This document shows positions 36,292 to 47,531 of a stretch of 64,000 nt of DNA, piece by piece. The notes beneath the pieces were generated by a model. It searched no databases. It saw only the letters and a list, made by a program, of their open reading frames with translations, and was not told where the DNA came from. Source of the DNA: an uncultured Bradyrhizobium sp. GTDB taxonomy: Bacteria > Pseudomonadota > Alphaproteobacteria > Rhizobiales > Xanthobacteraceae. The stretch is from NCBI RefSeq assembly GCF_947648125.1, contig NZ_CANSMR010000009.1, forward strand, positions 62,001-126,000, read 5' to 3'. Position 1 is the stretch's first letter; the number at the start of each line of letters is the position of its first letter. A program made the position numbers and the translations under genes.

Positions 36292-36751
36292 GCAAGCACT
36301 CTCCCTCGGCTTTGGCGCACAGGTGGGGGGCGCGCCGGGTTCCTCATTTTGGTTTATGCAAGTTCCAGCTTGCTTGGGCGACCTCTTAACCGGCCGCCAA
36401 GTTATAGCATATTACATTATTGTCGCGGTTGTCCGTCAAGCGAAAATTCAGCGGGCGGCAGTCCCGCCGCAGGTTACGAAAACCTTCGCAACCACTGATT
36501 TTTGGGTGCCTGGAGGCTGATGCCTGGGTCCCCGCCGGTCCCGGCGAGGGAAGCGGTGTCCGCGATCGGGCGTGTTGTCTTCTCAAGGTGAGACCGGTGG
36601 CGCGGCAGCCGACAAGACGCCATCGACGTCTGTGGCCATGACCTTGCGCCACGTTCCGCTGGGGATCTCTCGCGATCGACCGGCACAATGCTCGCACCCC
36701 CTGCCGCGAGGCGGCGCTCAGTCGCCGCGCGCGGCAGCAGGTCGTCGGCGG
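36292..36751. other. Intergenic region between the caspase gene 3' end and the ferredoxin start
   Basis: 460 bases with no gene I can support. The ferredoxin-proximal part is AT-rich and contains a promoter (36411-36439). The rest holds GC hairpins, for example GCGGCG/CGCCGC at 36711-36728 and a CCCCGCC...GGCGAGG pair near 36525-36555. None has a T-run. Short frames here are not gene-like. Confidence 0.5.
36411..36439 (-). promoter_or_regulatory. Candidate promoter of the ferredoxin-P450 operon
   Basis: On the minus strand TTGACG (36439-36434) and TGTAAT (36416-36411) are 17 bases apart, close to a sigma-70 consensus. The following ATATGCTATAACTT is AT-rich in contrast to flanks. The ferredoxin ATG lies about 115 bases downstream. 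Confidence 0.5.
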
Positions 36752-38131
36752 CTATGCCGGTACCAGTGGCGGTGATGCGATTGCGCCATTCAAGGCGATC
36801 GTCGGCGCGGATGCCGCGTCTGAATCAGCCGTCGAGACCGCGTAATTGTCCCATCGGCCCAGATCAAATGTGCTCGCGGTGAGAATTCGGAAGTAAAGCG
36901 CACTGTTATTGCGTAATGCCGCCCAAGCATAGGGTGGCAGATTATATGTGGCGCCGGTGAAGCGCGACTTGACCTGCGGGTCGTTCCACGAGGCGTAGAA
37001 ATTGTCGGCGGTTCGTTGTGCCGGATAGCCAAAACAGTTCGGATCGCTCGTGATCTCAAATGCATAATACGCGTTGGCGCCGGGCGATACGGTGAAGGCG
37101 GGACCGTTGCTTTTCGAACGATCGTAAGTGCTGGGGCCGGTGACCACAGGACCCTGCTGGGTGGTGGGCGGCTTTGCCGGTTGGCCCGTCGCCGAGGTGC
37201 GTTGATCGACCACGATCGTCAGTGGCTTCGAGTTGGTGAAGACGTCGTCGTTGACCCCGACCGTAAAGTAGTTCGGTGTCTGTTCGGCTGGCATCAGCGC
37301 CAGGATCGCTTGATGGAATTGCGGCAGCGAGCCGGTGAAATTGCCGCTGTTCCAGACTGACAGGAGTTTTTCGGTAAAGAGCCCGTTGCTCTGGCCGTCC
37401 TGCGATTCCTGATTGTCTTGACAGCCGGAGATCAGGATCACCGAAGCGGTAATCGCGCCACGCTTGCGGGTCCATTGCGCGGCTTCGTACATCGGCATGT
37501 CGCGCTCGAAGACATCGAGTGCGACGGAGGGAGGAATCGACCGCTTTTGTGTCGCTGCAACGTCAGGAGCGGGGCCGCGCGCACGCGTATTTGCGGCAGG
37601 CGCGTAAACCGACTTGAGGTTCTGTAGTCCGCGGCCCTGCGGGAAGATTGGAATTGCTTTGCGTTTCGACTGCGGCCATCGGATGCCGCTCGGGATGAAC
37701 AACTCTCGAATGACGGTGCCGCTGTGGCAACTGTCCGAATAGACCTCGATGCGCACGTTGGCCGCAAACTGGCCCCACAGATTGTAGAGCTCGTGTCCGA
37801 GGACCATGCGGTCGTAAGCCACCCAGGTGTCGTCAAGACCATTGGGCGAGTCGCCGGTCGTGTCCGGGACCTGGCCGCCGTGACCGGAATAGGAGATGAC
37901 GCAGGTATCTCCGGACTGCAAATTGTACGCAGCCTGGCCGATGGCTCCGAGAATGGCGTCGGCGGTCGCCTCACCATCAAGAAGCTTCTGCGTCGTGAAA
38001 CCCTGCGACTGACAAATCGTCTCCATCGCATTGGCATCGTTGATGCAGCCGGCCAGCGTGCCCGCCCAGCCGTTGTACTTCGATGCATCGACGCCGTTCA
38101 AACCAATATGTAGCGAAAAGCCCTGACTCAT
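36752..38131 (-). CDS. Caspase-like protease (bacterial metacaspase/orthocaspase) with C-terminal extension
   Basis: A 459-residue protein. Residues about 3-300 form a peptidase C14 caspase fold: GLNGVDASKYNGWAG, CVISYSGHGGQ with catalytic His84 and YSDSCHSG with catalytic Cys135. SGCQDNQESQDG (near 236) and NGLFTEKLL match the late caspase core. After a Pro/Thr-rich linker (317-340) a C-terminal domain of about 110 residues (NFYASWNDP, LPPYAWAALRN) is unassigned. No signal peptide is seen. It begins 12 bases after the 984-residue protein, so it is last in a three-gene unit. Substrate and role are unknown. Confidence 0.88.
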   Translation of the reverse strand: MSQGFSLHIGLNGVDASKYNGWAGTLAGCINDANAMETICQSQGFTTQKLLDGEATADAILGAIGQAAYNLQSGDTCVISYSGHGGQVPDTTGDSPNGLDDTWVAYDRMVLGHELYNLWGQFAANVRIEVYSDSCHSGTVIRELFIPSGIRWPQSKRKAIPIFPQGRGLQNLKSVYAPAANTRARGPAPDVAATQKRSIPPSVALDVFERDMPMYEAAQWTRKRGAITASVILISGCQDNQESQDGQSNGLFTEKLLSVWNSGNFTGSLPQFHQAILALMPAEQTPNYFTVGVNDDVFTNSKPLTIVVDQRTSATGQPAKPPTTQQGPVVTGPSTYDRSKSNGPAFTVSPGANAYYAFEITSDPNCFGYPAQRTADNFYASWNDPQVKSRFTGATYNLPPYAWAALRNNSALYFRILTASTFDLGRWDNYAVSTADSDAASAPTIALNGAIASPPLVPA

Positions 38132-38143
38132 AACATTCTCCTC

Positions 38144-41098
38144 CTACAGAAGATCAGCGGTAATTCCGATAACGCTGCCCTTGTTAAGGTCCCAATTGCG
38201 CCAGGCGGTCGTGAGCGTGCCGCTTGCGCGGGTCTCGACCAGCGCGAACTGCAGTGTCTGATGTGCCAGATAGTCGTTGATCGGCAGCGTAAACGAAGCG
38301 TCGGCCGTGCTGGCTTCAGCCAGACTGATGGTCTCGATGTGGCTGTTTCCCTCGAGGCGTGCCTGGACGGCAAGTGCAGTCAACTGATGGTTGGAAAAGT
38401 TGAGCTGATTGATGAACGTCACGGTGCTGGTGACGTCTTCGACGAACACGTCAAGCTCCTCGATCGACGTCGCAGCGACCGCGGTGGCGTTGGCAAACGC
38501 TCGCGTGGTCGCCGGATCAACTTTCGCGGTAACGGTTGTCCCTGGCGCGAGCGTGGTGTTTACGGCCACAACCTGGCTTGTCGCGCTTGCCGTCGACGTG
38601 ACCAGGTCCGTGACGTTCATGGCCTGCTGTGTGCGATTGGTGAGTGTCGCGGTGTCGCCTTGCAGTGCCACCGTCACCGGGCCGGATTCGGGAGGTCCAA
38701 CCACATTGCTGTCGACGATCAGCGCGGCGTTGACGCTGCTGCCGTCTGGCAGCGTGAAGGTAACGCCGCCCTGAATGCCGCTGCGATCGAGCACGGCGGT
38801 AAGGAGCGCGGCATTGGCCAGCGGCAGGCTGAGGGTAATGGTGATGGCGTCGAGTACGGTGACTGCTTGCGGCGTGCCCAATTCGGCGGGTAACGCCCAC
38901 GAATAGCCGACCGTGGCCGCGACGAACGGATCCGTCGGATAGACGATCGCCGGCGTGCTGCCCGACGGCGTCAGGGCGACAAGCTTCGCGCCGAGCTGCA
39001 GCAACGCCCCGGGAGAGACGTCCGGAATCAGTGTCGTGGTCAAGGCGTACCGATTGTTCGCAGGATCGACATCGAGCAGGCCATACAGCATGATCATCGG
39101 TCGGAAGGCCTTGCTGCCGCTTCCGTCGCCGAAACGCCCGACCCGGTACGCCGTCGGCGCGACCATGAAGCGTCCTGGCTGTTGCAGCGAGCGAAACACG
39201 CGGAACGCCGGATCACGCAACGTGGTGACTTCATCGAATGCCTTCAGCGCGGTTTCGCCGAGCTTCAGGGAATCCTGGCAGCCGATCGCTGTTGCAACCC
39301 CGGCATCATTGCGCTGGAGATAGAAGTTCCCGTAGCTGCCGCACGGCAGCGAAGCGTCGGTGGTCTCCTCGCGTACCACCGAACGCGTCACCAGCGTCCG
39401 GTGCGGAGTGATTATTGCCGGGATAAGATGCGGCTGAATGTCCGCAGGCGGTATTGGCGTGACCGCAAGGTGCGAGACGGCCGGTGTCGCCGGTGCCCGT
39501 CCGGCAATCGAAGGGCTCTCGCGGTCGAACTGCACCGAACCAGACGCACTGACGATTTTCAGGTCCTGCCTGACCAGCGTTGGTCCGCGCACCTGCGCCG
39601 GCAGATCGTTGACGGTGGCCACCTTGGCAATCTGGTGGACGAGGCCGCCTCCGATCACGTGGAACGTCTGGGGGCTGTCAAAGATGTACTGGTAGGAGGT
39701 GAAAGCGTAGGAGACGACGACGCGCGGCGGCTCACCGGTTCCGGGAAATGCCAGTGACGCATAGGTCAGCCGCACCCAGTCGTCGAGCAACGCGACGGTG
39801 ATCGTGATCTGGTCGCCGGTCTGGGACACTGTTCCGGGAAATCGCTGGGATTGAATCTCGCTGGTGCCCGCACGGCGATACGGAATCTGCAGCGCGCATG
39901 ACAGATTTTGCAACGGAACCGCTTGCAGCCTGCGATCCGGATTGGCCGCGGCGACGGCGGCCGTCTCTGGCGTCATCGCGGCCTTGACGGTGAGCCGCAC
40001 GGTTGCTGTCAATCCGGTTCTTGCGGTGCCGTCCGAGCCAAGCACCGAGCCGGTTTTTGCCAGCACAAAGGAGAACGCCGCGTTCGCGGCATTGTCGCTG
40101 GCCGCCGGCTTCACCAATGTGAAGGTCGGTGCATACCAGCCGGCCTTCGGGTCGAGCGCATCGGGCCACCAATGCGCGGCGACATCGGACACCACCGGGT
40201 AGTTCTGGGTGGGAGACTGGGTATCATCGAGGTGCAGCGGCAGCACGTACATATCGTTGCCGATGAACGTATGTGCGTGCGCATTGAGAGCGATGCCCTG
40301 GCTCGTGGCGCCGCCCGAGATCAGCGCGGCCGCCGAAGGCTGCGCGATGTGGCTTGCTGTCATCGCGAACGGCAGGGAGGTGAGCCGGTTGTTCATTGCA
40401 ACAAGCGGCACCGCCGCCGGCGCCGCCCGCAATGCCGTTTCACCGCCCGACAGGTTCTTCCGTAGCGGCGGCACACGGTTCGCGGTGCCGTCGGCATTCA
40501 CGACCAGCAGAGACAAATAAAGGTTGCGATCCAGGCCATCGAGAATCCCGCCAAGCACGAGGTCGAGCGACAAATCGTCAATCGGTGGACCGTCGACGAT
40601 CTCGGTCACAAGTCGAAGCCGCGATGCCCGTCGGTCGAACGCGTAGAGCACGTCGAGCGCGGCTTCCGGCGGCAGGGACGTGCCGATGGTGCCCTCGACC
40701 CGCGTTCCGAACAGGTCGGTGCCGGCATAGAACGCGCGACTGTCACGCAGCGAGCACCGGCCGGCACGGACGAACAGCTTCCGGCATGGTGCGTCCAGCC
40801 GCGAGGCGAGGGCCGCGATGTCCTGTTCGGGGGTCTCGAACGCAATCACCAGCGACAGCGAACCGCATGTCACCAGCGGTGCGATGGAGGCGTCGTCGAG
40901 CGTCGGCATACGCGACAGCACCAGTGTCAACGCCACCCGCGGGCGGCCGGCGATGTCGCGCGCCACCCGCGGCTTGCCCGAGAGATGGTCGTAACCATCT
41001 CTCGTACGCCGCACCTGGACCGATGCTGGACCCGGCAGATCAAGCCTGCTCCAGCCGGATGTCGTGCTCGTCGCGATGTGTGGTCCAAGGGCAGACAT
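38144..41098 (-). CDS. Large uncharacterised protein of the caspase-linked operon
   Basis: A 984-residue protein with no recognised domain, no signal peptide and no clear membrane segment. It is rich in Ala, Thr, Val and Leu with alternating hydrophobic patterns that suggest extended beta structure. The middle contains possible unit boundaries (VARDIAGRPRV, EEARGIAL-type turns, VVVSYAFTSYQYIFDSPQTF). The C-terminal third (VTFTLPDGSSV; VTVALQGDTATLTNRTQQAMNV) looks like immunoglobulin-like sandwiches. It lies 15 bases after the 762-residue gene and 12 before the caspase gene; co-transcription is almost certain. Function unknown. Confidence 0.8.
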   Translation of the reverse strand: MSALGPHIATSTTSGWSRLDLPGPASVQVRRTRDGYDHLSGKPRVARDIAGRPRVALTLVLSRMPTLDDASIAPLVTCGSLSLVIAFETPEQDIAALASRLDAPCRKLFVRAGRCSLRDSRAFYAGTDLFGTRVEGTIGTSLPPEAALDVLYAFDRRASRLRLVTEIVDGPPIDDLSLDLVLGGILDGLDRNLYLSLLVVNADGTANRVPPLRKNLSGGETALRAAPAAVPLVAMNNRLTSLPFAMTASHIAQPSAAALISGGATSQGIALNAHAHTFIGNDMYVLPLHLDDTQSPTQNYPVVSDVAAHWWPDALDPKAGWYAPTFTLVKPAASDNAANAAFSFVLAKTGSVLGSDGTARTGLTATVRLTVKAAMTPETAAVAAANPDRRLQAVPLQNLSCALQIPYRRAGTSEIQSQRFPGTVSQTGDQITITVALLDDWVRLTYASLAFPGTGEPPRVVVSYAFTSYQYIFDSPQTFHVIGGGLVHQIAKVATVNDLPAQVRGPTLVRQDLKIVSASGSVQFDRESPSIAGRAPATPAVSHLAVTPIPPADIQPHLIPAIITPHRTLVTRSVVREETTDASLPCGSYGNFYLQRNDAGVATAIGCQDSLKLGETALKAFDEVTTLRDPAFRVFRSLQQPGRFMVAPTAYRVGRFGDGSGSKAFRPMIMLYGLLDVDPANNRYALTTTLIPDVSPGALLQLGAKLVALTPSGSTPAIVYPTDPFVAATVGYSWALPAELGTPQAVTVLDAITITLSLPLANAALLTAVLDRSGIQGGVTFTLPDGSSVNAALIVDSNVVGPPESGPVTVALQGDTATLTNRTQQAMNVTDLVTSTASATSQVVAVNTTLAPGTTVTAKVDPATTRAFANATAVAATSIEELDVFVEDVTSTVTFINQLNFSNHQLTALAVQARLEGNSHIETISLAEASTADASFTLPINDYLAHQTLQFALVETRASGTLTTAWRNWDLNKGSVIGITADLL

Positions 41099-41113
41099 GG
41101 CTGCTCCGCCCGA

Positions 41114-43402
41114 CTAGGCTGGTTCGAAGCTCGAGAACACAACCTCGTCCTTTGGAGCCGGTGCACCCCTCGATGCGCCGCCATCTCCGGGGGACGCCGC
41201 CCAGCCGTCGACTTCGCCATAGCCGCCGGAACCGGGCGCGCCCTTGCCGGTCGGCGGAGGCGCCGTTGGTTTCAACGTACTGGGCGGAGGTACGACGTGA
41301 CCGGTCGAGGGCGGCGGCGTTGCCGGCGCACCTTGTCCAGTTGTCGTTGAGGCGATCGCAGACAACGGGACATCCTTCTTCGTGACGTTGGGATCATCCG
41401 GCGTCGGTACCGTCACCATCAGCCCGCCGCTGCCGCCCGTCGAGATCGGAGTGGTCGTCGACCATTCCTGTCCGTGGGTGAACAGCGTGCCTTTGACCAC
41501 GACGCGAACCGAATATTGAAACTTCGGCACGAAATTCTTCTGCCCGGTGTAAACCAGCCAGTAGCGCGGCGTGTTTTGATCCGCGAACTTGAAGGTGAAC
41601 TTGACCGGATCCCGGTCATTGCCGTCGTCGCGCTTGCCCAGCGCCTGCATCGTCACTTCGACGTATTGGGTGTCGTCGGTCAGATTGGCGCCAAGCAGGA
41701 TCGGCCCGACCGAGAGCGTGCCGGCTTCCTCGACGCGGACTTCAACCGCGATTGTGTTGTCGGGCGTTCCGAGCGGGCTTGGATCGAGATCGACGATGTC
41801 CTTCTCGACCTGCACGCGTGCATATGGATTCTCGAATTCGCTCGGCGGCTCGGTAAAGTGAATCTGCCGCTTCAGGAACATCTTGTCCGGCTCCCAGCCC
41901 GCCGGCGGATGGGCAACGTCGCTCTTCTGCTTCATGAACGTCGCGGTATCGAAATGGGCGTCCGGTCCATCGGACGGACTGAATACGTGTCCATCCCATT
42001 GCAGGGCGCCGTCGGCGTTGGGATAGCCAACCTGACAGGACAGGAATGCCACGGGTTCACCGACCCACTTCTGCGTCGGATCCGGCCAGTTCACCACCGG
42101 CTTGAAGACGCGCGCGACCTTGCGGTCCCAGTCGCCGATATCGACCGTAAGGAAGTAGACCTTGTCCTTGGCGGGATTGGCCCGGATTTCATCCGCCACG
42201 CCGTCGAGCGTGCCGCCGACCTGATAGTTCTGCAGGTAGGCGATTTCCTTGGTCTCGTGATACTCCAGATCGAGGTTGGTGCGCTGCTCGCGCAGTTTGA
42301 ACGCGGCGCCGCCACCGAAGCCGAGGAAGCCGCCACTGGCCTGTGCCGGTTGCTCGTTGAATGGTGCCGGGTCGAAGATCACCTGCTTCGCCAGGTCCAT
42401 GAACTTCTGGAAGATCAAGTCGCTCCGCTTGTCCATATATTCTTGCAGCTTGTCTGCCCCAGGCAGCGACTGGTCGACGAATGTATGGACCTCGATGTCG
42501 CCGGATTCGCGGAGGCTGTCGTATTGGGCTTGAATGTCGGCGCTCCAGAACAGACCGCCGGCGTGTGCGGCACCAGAGAAGTGATCCTGGATTCTCGACC
42601 AATGACCGGTGATGTCGATCGTCATCAGGGGACTGACCACCCGGACCATCATGTTCTGCGTCACGTTCATCACGCCGGTGCCGAGATTATGAAAGCCGCT
42701 ATAGGCAACCGCCGCCGGGATGCTGCCGAGCAGCGCGCTGTAAGCCTTCTCCGCGCCTGGATCGATGGTGCCGGGGCCTTGCCCTGACAGCTTCACGAAC
42801 ATCGGGTCGATGTTGGTGCCGCGATAGCTCTGCGGCACCGTGCGGGGCATGACTCCCGCCGGCAGATAGGAGCGGTTGAGCCCGATCGTCGGTGGCGCTC
42901 CTGCGATTGGGCTCTTGCTCGACATCACGGCCGGAATGCCACGGCTGTCGCCCGGCAAGGTGTTGGAGAGCACGCACTGATTGCTGACGATGGGAATGAA
43001 AGTGAACCATGGCTTCTGATTCGAGGTGTATCGCCACAGCGGATTGTCATGTGTGCGAACCTGATCGATCAGCGCCGCATGGGCATCGGCCAGCACGTTG
43101 TCCGGCGGCGCCGCAGTCGTCGCGAAATTGATCAGCCCGCCCGCCACTTCGTTGTCGGAACTGGTTTCGCCGACGGTGGTGCCGCTCGATCGCACACCGG
43201 CGAAGTGGATCATGCTGAACTTGTAGTCGCCGTTGGGCTTCCGCGCGAGATTGACCTGCTCGGGCAGCCAGTAATACACCGGCGCTTGCCCGGCTGCCTG
43301 CAATTGCTGGTTGTGCGCATCGACCCAGTAGCTGATACGCCACCCAGATTTCGTCACGACCTGATTGCCGACTGCGAAAAGCGGTCCAACTGGCGTCACC
43401 AT
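41114..43402 (-). CDS. Large uncharacterised protein, first gene of the caspase-linked operon
   Basis: A 762-residue protein with no domain I can name. It opens GPLFAVGNQVVTKSGWRISYWVDA, has a central Gly-rich stretch (GGFLGFGGGAAF near 352), and a beta-rich region (VKFTFKFADQNTPRYWLVYTGQ). The final 110 residues are a low-complexity Pro/Gly/Ala tail (TPPPSTGHVVPPPSTLKPTAPPP) ending FSSFEPA. No signal peptide. GGAG precedes the start by about nine bases. The tail could be a protease-cleaved or sorting segment given the downstream caspase; that is conjecture. Confidence 0.8.
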   Translation of the reverse strand: MVTPVGPLFAVGNQVVTKSGWRISYWVDAHNQQLQAAGQAPVYYWLPEQVNLARKPNGDYKFSMIHFAGVRSSGTTVGETSSDNEVAGGLINFATTAAPPDNVLADAHAALIDQVRTHDNPLWRYTSNQKPWFTFIPIVSNQCVLSNTLPGDSRGIPAVMSSKSPIAGAPPTIGLNRSYLPAGVMPRTVPQSYRGTNIDPMFVKLSGQGPGTIDPGAEKAYSALLGSIPAAVAYSGFHNLGTGVMNVTQNMMVRVVSPLMTIDITGHWSRIQDHFSGAAHAGGLFWSADIQAQYDSLRESGDIEVHTFVDQSLPGADKLQEYMDKRSDLIFQKFMDLAKQVIFDPAPFNEQPAQASGGFLGFGGGAAFKLREQRTNLDLEYHETKEIAYLQNYQVGGTLDGVADEIRANPAKDKVYFLTVDIGDWDRKVARVFKPVVNWPDPTQKWVGEPVAFLSCQVGYPNADGALQWDGHVFSPSDGPDAHFDTATFMKQKSDVAHPPAGWEPDKMFLKRQIHFTEPPSEFENPYARVQVEKDIVDLDPSPLGTPDNTIAVEVRVEEAGTLSVGPILLGANLTDDTQYVEVTMQALGKRDDGNDRDPVKFTFKFADQNTPRYWLVYTGQKNFVPKFQYSVRVVVKGTLFTHGQEWSTTTPISTGGSGGLMVTVPTPDDPNVTKKDVPLSAIASTTTGQGAPATPPPSTGHVVPPPSTLKPTAPPPTGKGAPGSGGYGEVDGWAASPGDGGASRGAPAPKDEVVFSSFEPA

Positions 43403-44270
43403 AATGATACTCCGCTTGGGTTGCGGCGATCGACGGCGCTCAGAGAATTTGTGAAACCGCCTCGCCGTATGAAAGTTGCGCGGGATCTCTCCAGATGGAG
43501 GGATACCGAAAAATCGAGCTCAGCCATTTGTGGCTGCTCATCCGTCAATTCGCGGTCACGCGATACTTCCATTCGAAGGCGCGGGTCGCACGATGAGCAA
43601 GTTTGGGAAGTTCCCAGGATTGATAATTGCGGTCGCAGTTTGCGCCGGCATCAAGATGCATTGGAAAAACTAGAAATATTGATCGAACCGTTTGTCTTGC
43701 ATGCCTTCCTCCTTGCCCAATACTGGCTTCGGAACGGATGCGACTTGTGCAGTGGTATTCTCGATCCTTGCAACCAGCATGCTAGACCCGTTGCGGTCGT
43801 TCCTTAGTGAGATCGTTCACAGCCTCAGAGGTGATTTGCGGGAGTGGTAAACATTTTGCGGCCCTATTCGGTTTACTTCGCTAAGTATGCAGCCAACAGT
43901 TGAGCTTCATCTTGCGCAAATCGAGCTCGGTTCGGCTTCCTGCCGCCGCAGGCGCGGCAAGAAGAAGTGAAGCGGTGCCTGTACATGTGGGCGCGGCAGG
44001 CCGGCTTCAGTTGCAGCTCACGGATGGTGGTGGGCGCGGAGGTCAATCATCCAGTCGATCAGGAAAGCGGGGGGACCGACCGGCCGTGTCCGGCCTTGAA
44101 GATTGCCCGGGCGAACGAGGCAAGCTTCGCGGATATGGCCGGAGGATCCGGCAGGTCGCCGCCACCGGCATTGCGGATGTCGCATCCCCCATTCGAAGGG
44201 GTGACGTAAGCCTTTGATTTCGCTATCCTGTCCTCTCGATGGGCATCGCACTCGAGCAATCATTGCGGCA
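43403..44270. other. 868-base gap upstream of the caspase-linked operon and the TetR gene
   Basis: Contains the shared control region for the divergent units. Base composition is lower in GC than the flanks. Reading frames here (43900-44217 plus and 44018-44299 minus) have no coding pattern and no ribosome site; a possible membrane peptide at 43593 is listed separately. No repeat family member or terminator was recognised. Confidence 0.4.
43593..43673 (+). CDS. Possible 26-residue membrane peptide
   Basis: A short frame with polar N-terminus (MSKFGKFPG), hydrophobic core LIIAVAVCAGI and basic tail KMHWKN, the pattern of small membrane peptides. It lies divergent to and 190 bases from the caspase-linked operon. 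No strong ribosome site is seen (GAAGG is about 12 bases upstream). It may be chance. Confidence 0.2.
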   Translation: MSKFGKFPGLIIAVAVCAGIKMHWKN

Positions 44271-44903
44271 ATGGGACAAATCATTCGTAAGCCGTTCAAA
44301 ACCTACCACCATGGCGACCTCCGCGAAGCCCTGATTCAGGTGGCGTTACGCGAGGTCGAGCTCGGTGGCCCCGAAGCGATCAGCATCAAGGCGCTGGCCA
44401 AGCAACTCGGCGTCTCGCAGCCGGCGCCGTACCGGCATTTCGCCGACCGCGAGGCGTTGCTGGAGGCGGTGACCGCGGAAGCGTTCCGGCAGTTCAACGT
44501 GATCATGCGCGAGGCGATCGAGCAGCCCGGCAAGGGCTCGAAACTGTCGCGCTTTGCCCAGGCTGCGCTCGCCTTCGGGCTCGAGCGCCACGGTATCTAC
44601 CGCTTGATGTTCGCGTCCCGAACCATGGCCTGCGCGCCTGTCGGCAGCGAGCTGCACGTCGCGGCAATGGAAACGCTGGCGCTGCTGATCGAGTCGTTCG
44701 AGGCGCCGGCCGTCGGGCTGTTGCGCGAACGGCAGGCGCTGAAGATCTGGGCCGGGCTGCACGGCATCGTGATGCTTGCCGAGCAGGGCCTGCTCACCGG
44801 CGAAGTCGGCCAGATCAGCCGCGAGGAACTGATGGACGAGATCGTCGAGCAGACCAAGCTCGCGCTCACCGTCGCGCTGCATGCGACGGAAGAGAAGGCG
44901 TAG
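44271..44903 (+). CDS. TetR-family transcriptional regulator
   Basis: A 210-residue regulator. The HTH (residues about 30-58) reads ISIKALAKQLGVSQPAPYRHFADREALLEAV. The rest is a helical ligand domain of the TetR_C-type (FGLERHGIYRLMFASRTM, near 105-122). ATG 44271 fits the usual short N-terminus (YHHGDLREALIQVALREV); a longer frame starts at 44214. It lies between the caspase-linked operon and an amidase; its target is unknown. Confidence 0.87.
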   Translation: MGQIIRKPFKTYHHGDLREALIQVALREVELGGPEAISIKALAKQLGVSQPAPYRHFADREALLEAVTAEAFRQFNVIMREAIEQPGKGSKLSRFAQAALAFGLERHGIYRLMFASRTMACAPVGSELHVAAMETLALLIESFEAPAVGLLRERQALKIWAGLHGIVMLAEQGLLTGEVGQISREELMDEIVEQTKLALTVALHATEEKA

Positions 44904-44947
44904 GGCAGATCGTCTGCAGCCGATCCCTTCGTCCTAGATAGCCACGC

Positions 44948-45030
44948 CATTGCGAGGAGCGAAGCGACGAAGCAATCCATTGCTCTGCGCGCTCGGTGAC
45001 GATGGATTGCTTCGCTTCGCTCGCAATGAC
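44948..45030. repeat. Palindromic repeat, family R1
   Basis: Inverted arms CATTGCGAGGAGCGAAGCGA...ATCCAT (44948-44980) and ATGGATTGC...CGCAATGAC (45002-45030) around a 21-base loop. Same element as at 22282 and 47437. It sits between the convergent TetR and amidase genes, where it could serve both as a bidirectional terminator. Confidence 0.82.
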
Positions 45031-45068
45031 AAAGTGGAGGGTGTCGCCCACGCTCTCCACCATGAGGG

Positions 45069-47433: not shown

Positions 47434-47436
47434 GCC

Positions 47437-47520
47437 GTCATTGCGAGGCGCGAAGCGACGAAGCAATCCATCGCTCCGCATATGCCGATGCATGGATTGC
47501 TTCGCTTCGCTCGCAATGAC
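47437..47520. repeat. Palindromic repeat, family R1
   Basis: Begins three bases after the hydrolase stop codon. Arms GTCATTGCGAGGCGCGAAGC...CAATCCAT and ATGGATTGCTTCGC...GCAATGAC (47492-47520) flank a variable loop. It lies between convergent genes, as does the 44948 copy. Confidence 0.82.
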
Positions 47521-47531
47521 GGGGAGAGGGA

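Follow-up and report, generated by a model that had tools for sequence, protein, structure and literature searches.

A gene pair for two large proteins, followed by a caspase-family protease in Bradyrhizobium and by other hydrolases at some other loci

Several bacterial systems resemble a three-gene unit that lies in a 64,000-nucleotide stretch of DNA (the whole of which is called the window) from an uncultured Bradyrhizobium sp. The unit encodes two large proteins, P1 and P2, and then a caspase-family protease. In bacterial gasdermin systems variable proteases stand beside a constant partner, and the gasdermin is much smaller than P1 or P2. In cellulosomes (dockerin-cohesin) and with the marker domains of secretion-system effectors, one small domain marks unrelated enzymes for one assembly. 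As described in sections of Kaur et al. 2020 (PMC7159879), the EACC1-caspase system usually has a constant caspase, a partner protein with one transmembrane (TM) helix and variable domains fused to the caspase, and the trypsin-NucA/EAD1 systems, mostly from Alphaproteobacteria, have several peptidases with lysozyme- or papain-like partners. Parts of PMC3501461 (which we take to be Asplund-Samuelsson et al. 2012) report metacaspase operons, among them an operon of Geobacter sulfurreducens that includes an amidase and, from four Rhizobium strains, a protease operon. In parts of PMC3482391 (presumably Zhang et al. 2012), caspase domains of polymorphic toxins are assigned to the release of peptidases or toxins.

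The P1-P2 pair and its neighbours in other genomes

The original prediction, a new caspase-based system defined by a conserved gene neighbourhood, is partly supported and was half right; the system appears to be conserved, but the caspase is an interchangeable part of it, one among several. The P1 and P2 genes are adjacent and in the same order in all five independent loci (the window, a Deinococcus plasmid and the Pseudomonadota genomes G388, G513 and G706). The gene after them encodes a caspase in three of the five and a subtilase in G513, and the divergent G706 has a GH25 lysozyme two genes on. Thus the P1-P2 pair, present five times out of five, is the constant part. The caspase belongs to a set of exchangeable enzymes, with the subtilase instead in G513 and the lysozyme in G706. 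Neither of these two stretches has a caspase, which argues against a system based on that enzyme.

The neighbourhood search placed the three-gene order far beyond Bradyrhizobium. A plasmid of Deinococcus taeanensis, the sole P1 match in 72,556 plasmid records, carries homologues of P1, P2 and the caspase in the same order, with 45%, 31% and 48% identity to the window proteins in the alignments. G388 has only the start of P1 and a later part of P2, followed by a caspase and a subtilase; this copy has apparently decayed by internal deletion. The subtilase of G513 (PF00082, 1.2e-42) has an Rv2525c-like glycoside-hydrolase domain. In G706 the P1 and P2 are diverged and are accompanied by a protein with hydrophobic stretches, the lysozyme and, near it, a Vps62-like protein (L022:14428-15693), with no protease among the four neighbours scanned.

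Among 398 Pseudomonadota genomes, window P1 as a single-protein query matched two and a four-row P1 profile matched five, one of them judged spurious. P1 occurs in 3 of 245 genomes of the G388 family and, by genus, carriers make up 1/15, 1/15 and 1/62 genomes in three genera. The Bradyrhizobium sample gave three matches in 98 genomes: the window's own genome, G049 and one judged spurious. The matches rejected as spurious are G033 in this sample (9.1e-4, in the tail region with three stops) and, with the profile, G123 (8.9e-4, seven stops).

More distant relatives were reached by profiles. The matches of the four-row profile include two distant Pseudomonadota genomes, G156 (2.0e-10) and G433 (8.7e-7). 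In a local run on fetched proteins it also reached members of clusters in Pararhizobium and Paracoccus (best 7.9e-14). The reverse profile, made from the distant members, picked window P1 out of its entire genome at 2.8e-4 and matched 2 of the 398 Pseudomonadota genomes. A profile-profile comparison of P1 with the distant members gave an E value of 1.2e-30, under settings that may have imposed a global alignment; in the same run neighbours outside the P1 family had scores near zero, as, however, did several single family members. By the reciprocal profile matches, these predicted proteins are members of the P1 family as defined here. The distant clusters of G156, Pararhizobium and Paracoccus each contain several P1-type genes. 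The relative in G433 (L029:8915-10330) is short, 471 residues; its N-terminal stretch is hydrophobic and, judged by eye, resembles a signal peptide.

The neighbours of the distant members also include hydrolases. A NAL1-type trypsin-like protease and an Amidase_3 protein are encoded at the G156 cluster. The large P1-type cluster on the Paracoccus plasmid (L031:1993-27845) has genes for a PLD-like protein, a tyrosinase and a trypsin, and adjoins a trypsin-EAD1-ATPase set, the annotated EAD1 protein and the ATPase lying upstream. Wall-related domains occur in four of nine P1-family loci, counted over the part of the neighbours that was scanned: PG_binding_1 in Deinococcus, the Rv2525c-like domain in G513, GH25 in G706 and Amidase_3 in G156.

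A domain shared by unrelated proteases

The original prediction overlooked a domain by which the proteases are linked to the module. This domain of about 130 residues, here called the tag, forms residues 325-459 of the window caspase and recurs on the caspases of Deinococcus and G388 and on two subtilases, once in G388 and in three copies in G513. A profile of these seven copies, from caspases and subtilases, was run on 1968 open reading frames (ORFs) of 16 loci and matched a 536-residue protein of the G156 cluster at 1.9e-7. A homologue of this protein is encoded on the Pararhizobium plasmid (26% identity, E 1e-38), and the profile with the G156 row added found its tag at 6.4e-5, against 0.88 for the best shuffled ORF (2293 ORFs of 20 loci). 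The two proteins keep Cys, His and Asn in papain-like order (C298, H469 and N485 of P0004) and have no Pfam family match; they are read here as papain-like candidate proteases. The tag is therefore carried by a protease or candidate protease in six of the nine P1-family loci, namely the window, Deinococcus, G388, G513, G156 and Pararhizobium.

The nearest solved protein to the window caspase is GSU0716 of Geobacter (PDB 3bij, 4.7e-73, best stretch residues 1-145). Six other GSU0716-like caspases compared (L032, L037, L039, L040, L059, L060) have no tag. The window's genome (8.57 Mb) has 12 caspase genes by PF00656 and a single tag match, on this caspase alone. The tag has no match in PDB, and its best Pfam value, 0.039 to an Ig-type domain, came from one of eight members. 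With one tag copy as the query, the 72,556 plasmid records yielded the Deinococcus caspase and a tag-like stretch on an Ensifer adhaerens plasmid (L058:10001-10228, 39.5% identity). The latter lies outside any recognisable gene, has the look of a remnant and was excluded from the counts.

Table 1. Features of the three-gene unit, in positions of the window
Feature	Positions	Strand	Description or basis
P1	41114-43402	minus	762 residues, first gene; ORF list
P2	38144-41098	minus	984 residues, second gene; ORF list
Caspase-family (C14) protease	36752-38131	minus	459 residues, last gene; H84/C135; GSU0716-like
Tag domain, caspase residues 325-459	36755-37159	minus	common to subtilases and papain-like candidates of other P1-family loci
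P1 Pro/Gly-rich tail, residues 665-762	41117-41410	minus	composition
Inserted segment with the module, about 7.8 kb	36454-44254		comparison with other Bradyrhizobium sites

The proteins and their insertion in Bradyrhizobium

As predicted, the three genes form a real minus-strand unit (Table 1), with confirmed gaps of 15 bases between P1 and P2 and 12 bases between P2 and the caspase. The prediction of a caspase-like protease also holds. The last protein matches Pfam Peptidase_C14 (PF00656) at 9.5e-22, with 78.3 bits against a cut-off of 21.4, and H84 and C135, presumably the catalytic residues of the caspase family, are invariant across three aligned module caspases. It is a member of the Peptidase_C14 superfamily and a predicted protease. 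The PADLOC 'caspase' model PDLC02987 matches residues 24-278 (2.5e-9), and NCBIfam caspase_w_EACC1 scores 18.6 bits against a cut-off of 140. In two rhizobial loci (L040:4930-6840 and L039:4906-6840) GSU0716-like caspases are fused behind another region, GDSL-lipase-like in L040, with papain-type, trypsin-like or CHAP-domain genes nearby.

P1 and P2 had been described as without a recognised domain, and profile searches agree: nothing significant was found in Pfam, NCBIfam, PHROGs or PADLOC (best 0.085) or among the PDB sequences (best 0.19). The profiles of distant P1-family members found nothing significant in PDB, nor did the members themselves in NCBIfam. Proteins of the P1 family are mostly about 680-900 residues long; window P1 has an N-terminal YxLP-type domain, and its most conserved stretch is at about 198-342. 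AlphaFold2 gave a mean predicted local distance difference test score (pLDDT) of 29 for P1, from an alignment with two near-identical rows, and 49.5 for the fragment 195-350, whose model had no match in a PDB fold search at E <= 0.001. With model confidence too low and the fold search empty, no fold is claimed.

The P1 tail is rich in proline and glycine as had been noted, with 20 P and 14 G, and at 98 residues it is slightly shorter than the 110 given before. As a specific target of the caspase, which had been suggested, it is a weak candidate. It is missing in G706, the window and Deinococcus tails align only in short pieces, and a Pro/Gly tail is also found on P1 of G513, a locus without a caspase.

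The proposed lack of signal peptides and membrane helices in the two large proteins is borne out by hydropathy for P1, and the caspase shows none either; their highest 19-residue Kyte-Doolittle means are 0.95 and 1.08. P2 reaches 1.85, from residue 752, above the usual mark of 1.6 for a membrane helix. The other P2 proteins have maxima of 1.20, 1.61 and 1.56 at different places, and the stretch is therefore not read as a conserved helix. Weak matches to the P1 N-terminal domain occur in P2 of G513 (2.8e-5) and of the window (0.0078), with 0.17 for the best shuffled sequence, the P2 proteins of Deinococcus and G706 not being among the rows listed; that P2 carries weak copies of this domain is suggestive only.

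Two further Bradyrhizobium copies, in B. altum (L012) and B. uaiense (L013), were found by single-protein query of genome contigs. Their P1 is 99% identical to that of the window, their P2 95% and 98% and their caspase 88% and 98%. Compared with L012 and L013, P1 has ratios of nonsynonymous to synonymous substitution rates (dN/dS) of 0.03 and 0.11, P2 of 0.24 and 0.23 and the caspase of 0.10 and 0.12. The module is under purifying selection. With dN/dS of 0.03-0.24 for all three genes and a gene order that recurs in another phylum, the unit is not a chance arrangement.

The module is inserted at a site that is empty in some other genomes. Identity of B. uaiense to the window is 98.2% over the block 36689-44906 and 89-93% in the matching flanks; in B. 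altum 36759-43820 alone matches within the 22 kb compared. In G004 and G070 the sequence passes from window position 36453 to 44255 within a few bases, which leaves the site empty, and G069, G044 and G077 have other genes at the same site, including SDR and TetR types by eye. The module is therefore a rare 7.8-kb insertion at a variable site, between P450 and TetR genes. In a check for a transposon origin, the two end regions, each scanned alone for repeats, showed no direct repeats and weak inverted ones at the right end only. A short dispersed repeat of about 80-105 bp (window 44945-45049 and 47435-47521), whose copies are about 80-94% identical, lies close to the right flank and is also present in several Bradyrhizobium genomes.

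A viral or phage origin was set aside. Scans of viral contigs with P1, P2 and the P1-family profiles found no relatives, and phage records matched neither window P1 nor the P1 relative from Pararhizobium. With the caspase as the query, the viral contig scan found three relatives.

Possible function and comparison with known systems

The reading preferred here, at about even chances, is that P1-P2 is a scaffold or delivery assembly that takes exchangeable, tag-marked hydrolases, in a horizontally moving module that probably serves cell killing or conflict. P1 and P2, large and apparently soluble, would co-assemble into a scaffold or delivery particle. The tag would dock the hydrolase to this assembly, in the manner of dockerins or of effector marker domains in other systems; docking is the simplest reading of a domain shared by catalytically unrelated proteases next to one pair of large proteins or its relatives. 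On a trigger, the assembly would bring the protease, or at several loci a cell-wall-acting activity, to its target. The wall-related domains in four of nine loci point to the cell envelope as the place of action, and the patchy, mobile distribution points to a conflict or defence role, most likely the killing of the own cell under attack or of a competitor. A wider claim is tentative and rather doubtful: P1-P2 may represent a new class of assembly with a dedicated docking domain for proteases of no fewer than three unrelated families (caspase, subtilase, papain-like) and for wall hydrolases, a plug-in weapon or suicide machine used across phyla.

Several points weigh against the scaffold reading. 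Assembly, docking, trigger, target, localisation and killing are steps that we infer. No tag was found in G706 or G433, and G706 is one of three P1 carriers in the G388 family; nor was it detected in Paracoccus, where the P1 relatives occur with trypsin, tyrosinase and PLD genes. Docking through the tag is therefore not universal. In the survey of 245 genomes of the G388 family, with at most 17 candidate places scored per genome, two genomes had the tag, G388 and G513, both P1 carriers with all copies inside the module; their copies are in the tag profile and match by construction, so that the informative part is the 243 genomes without the tag. A P2 in the G156 cluster was rejected, as a segment profile matched the G156 protein only when that protein was included. 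Inspection by eye, without a library scan of the flanking proteins, picked out neither a trigger nor an immunity gene beside the window copy.

The same gene order, with the protease swapped beside constant large partners, would also suit a caspase-centred suicide system on the gasdermin pattern. The caspase would then cut and activate P1 and P2, which would be its substrates or pore formers, and a swapped protease would change the activator only. This is judged unlikely. Hydropathy shows no conserved membrane helix in P1 or P2, although a beta-barrel pore would still be compatible; the Pro/Gly tail is poorly conserved and occurs without the caspase; and G706 pairs P1-P2 with a lysozyme and lacks both a caspase and, among its four scanned neighbours, any protease.

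Wall-binding or wall-cutting domains in four of nine loci, on proteins whose N-termini (four inspected by eye) show no evident signal peptide, together with the marker-domain logic of the tag, could instead indicate an extracellular P1-P2 particle, freed by lysis or an unknown route and carrying hydrolases against rival cells. Such a particle is improbable: injection-system genes were not recognised, by annotation or eye, in the fetched neighbourhoods, and neither the ABC transporter set about 6 kb from the Pararhizobium cluster nor the barstar-family gene about 8 kb from the Deinococcus cluster is obviously part of the module. Quite improbable is an accessory complex for stress, envelope or metabolic proteolysis with no conflict role. 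The flanks seen by eye (P450, transporter, TetR regulator, amidase) appear to belong to ordinary metabolism, but the patchy, mobile distribution and the swapped enzymes fit conflict modules better than housekeeping.

At these loci one type of caspase goes with a conserved pair of partners and carries a domain predictive of an interaction, which bears on what most bacterial caspases do. The replacement of the caspase by a subtilase or papain-like candidate in the same setting makes binding of the tag to P1 or P2 a simple test, and the tag is a sequence handle for finding further members. Titles and abstracts in the literature held no description of P1-P2 or of the tag; most subscription papers lie outside this search, and absence is not proven.

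Of the described systems, the GSU0716-type metacaspases (3bij) share the caspase domain and the H/C dyad, to which the module caspases add the tag. With the PADLOC model PDLC02987 the match stays within the caspase domain region, and none of the PADLOC models picks up P1 or P2. The EACC1-caspase system is alike in having a caspase gene after a constant partner and in its variable parts; here, however, the protease itself is swapped, and the gene upstream of the window caspase encodes not a one-TM protein but the 984-residue P2, with no family match and no conserved TM helix by hydropathy. The trypsin-NucA/EAD1 systems share peptidases in lysozyme- or papain-like company, and an annotated EAD1 gene adjoins the Paracoccus cluster; the three window proteins however have no NucA or EAD1 match in Pfam or NCBIfam, and the sections of PMC7159879 hold nothing like P1-P2. 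Gasdermin-protease pairs also place variable proteases beside a constant partner, but P1 and P2 are far larger and match no library. They have no match in Pfam or PADLOC, libraries in which a bacterial gasdermin model is unverified, and the P1 model is of low confidence. Unlike the marker domains of cellulosomes and effectors, the tag and P1-P2 have no significant Pfam match; the logic of a small domain on unrelated enzymes is the same. The company of proteases and an amidase at the P1 loci is in keeping with the metacaspase operons reported in parts of PMC3501461.

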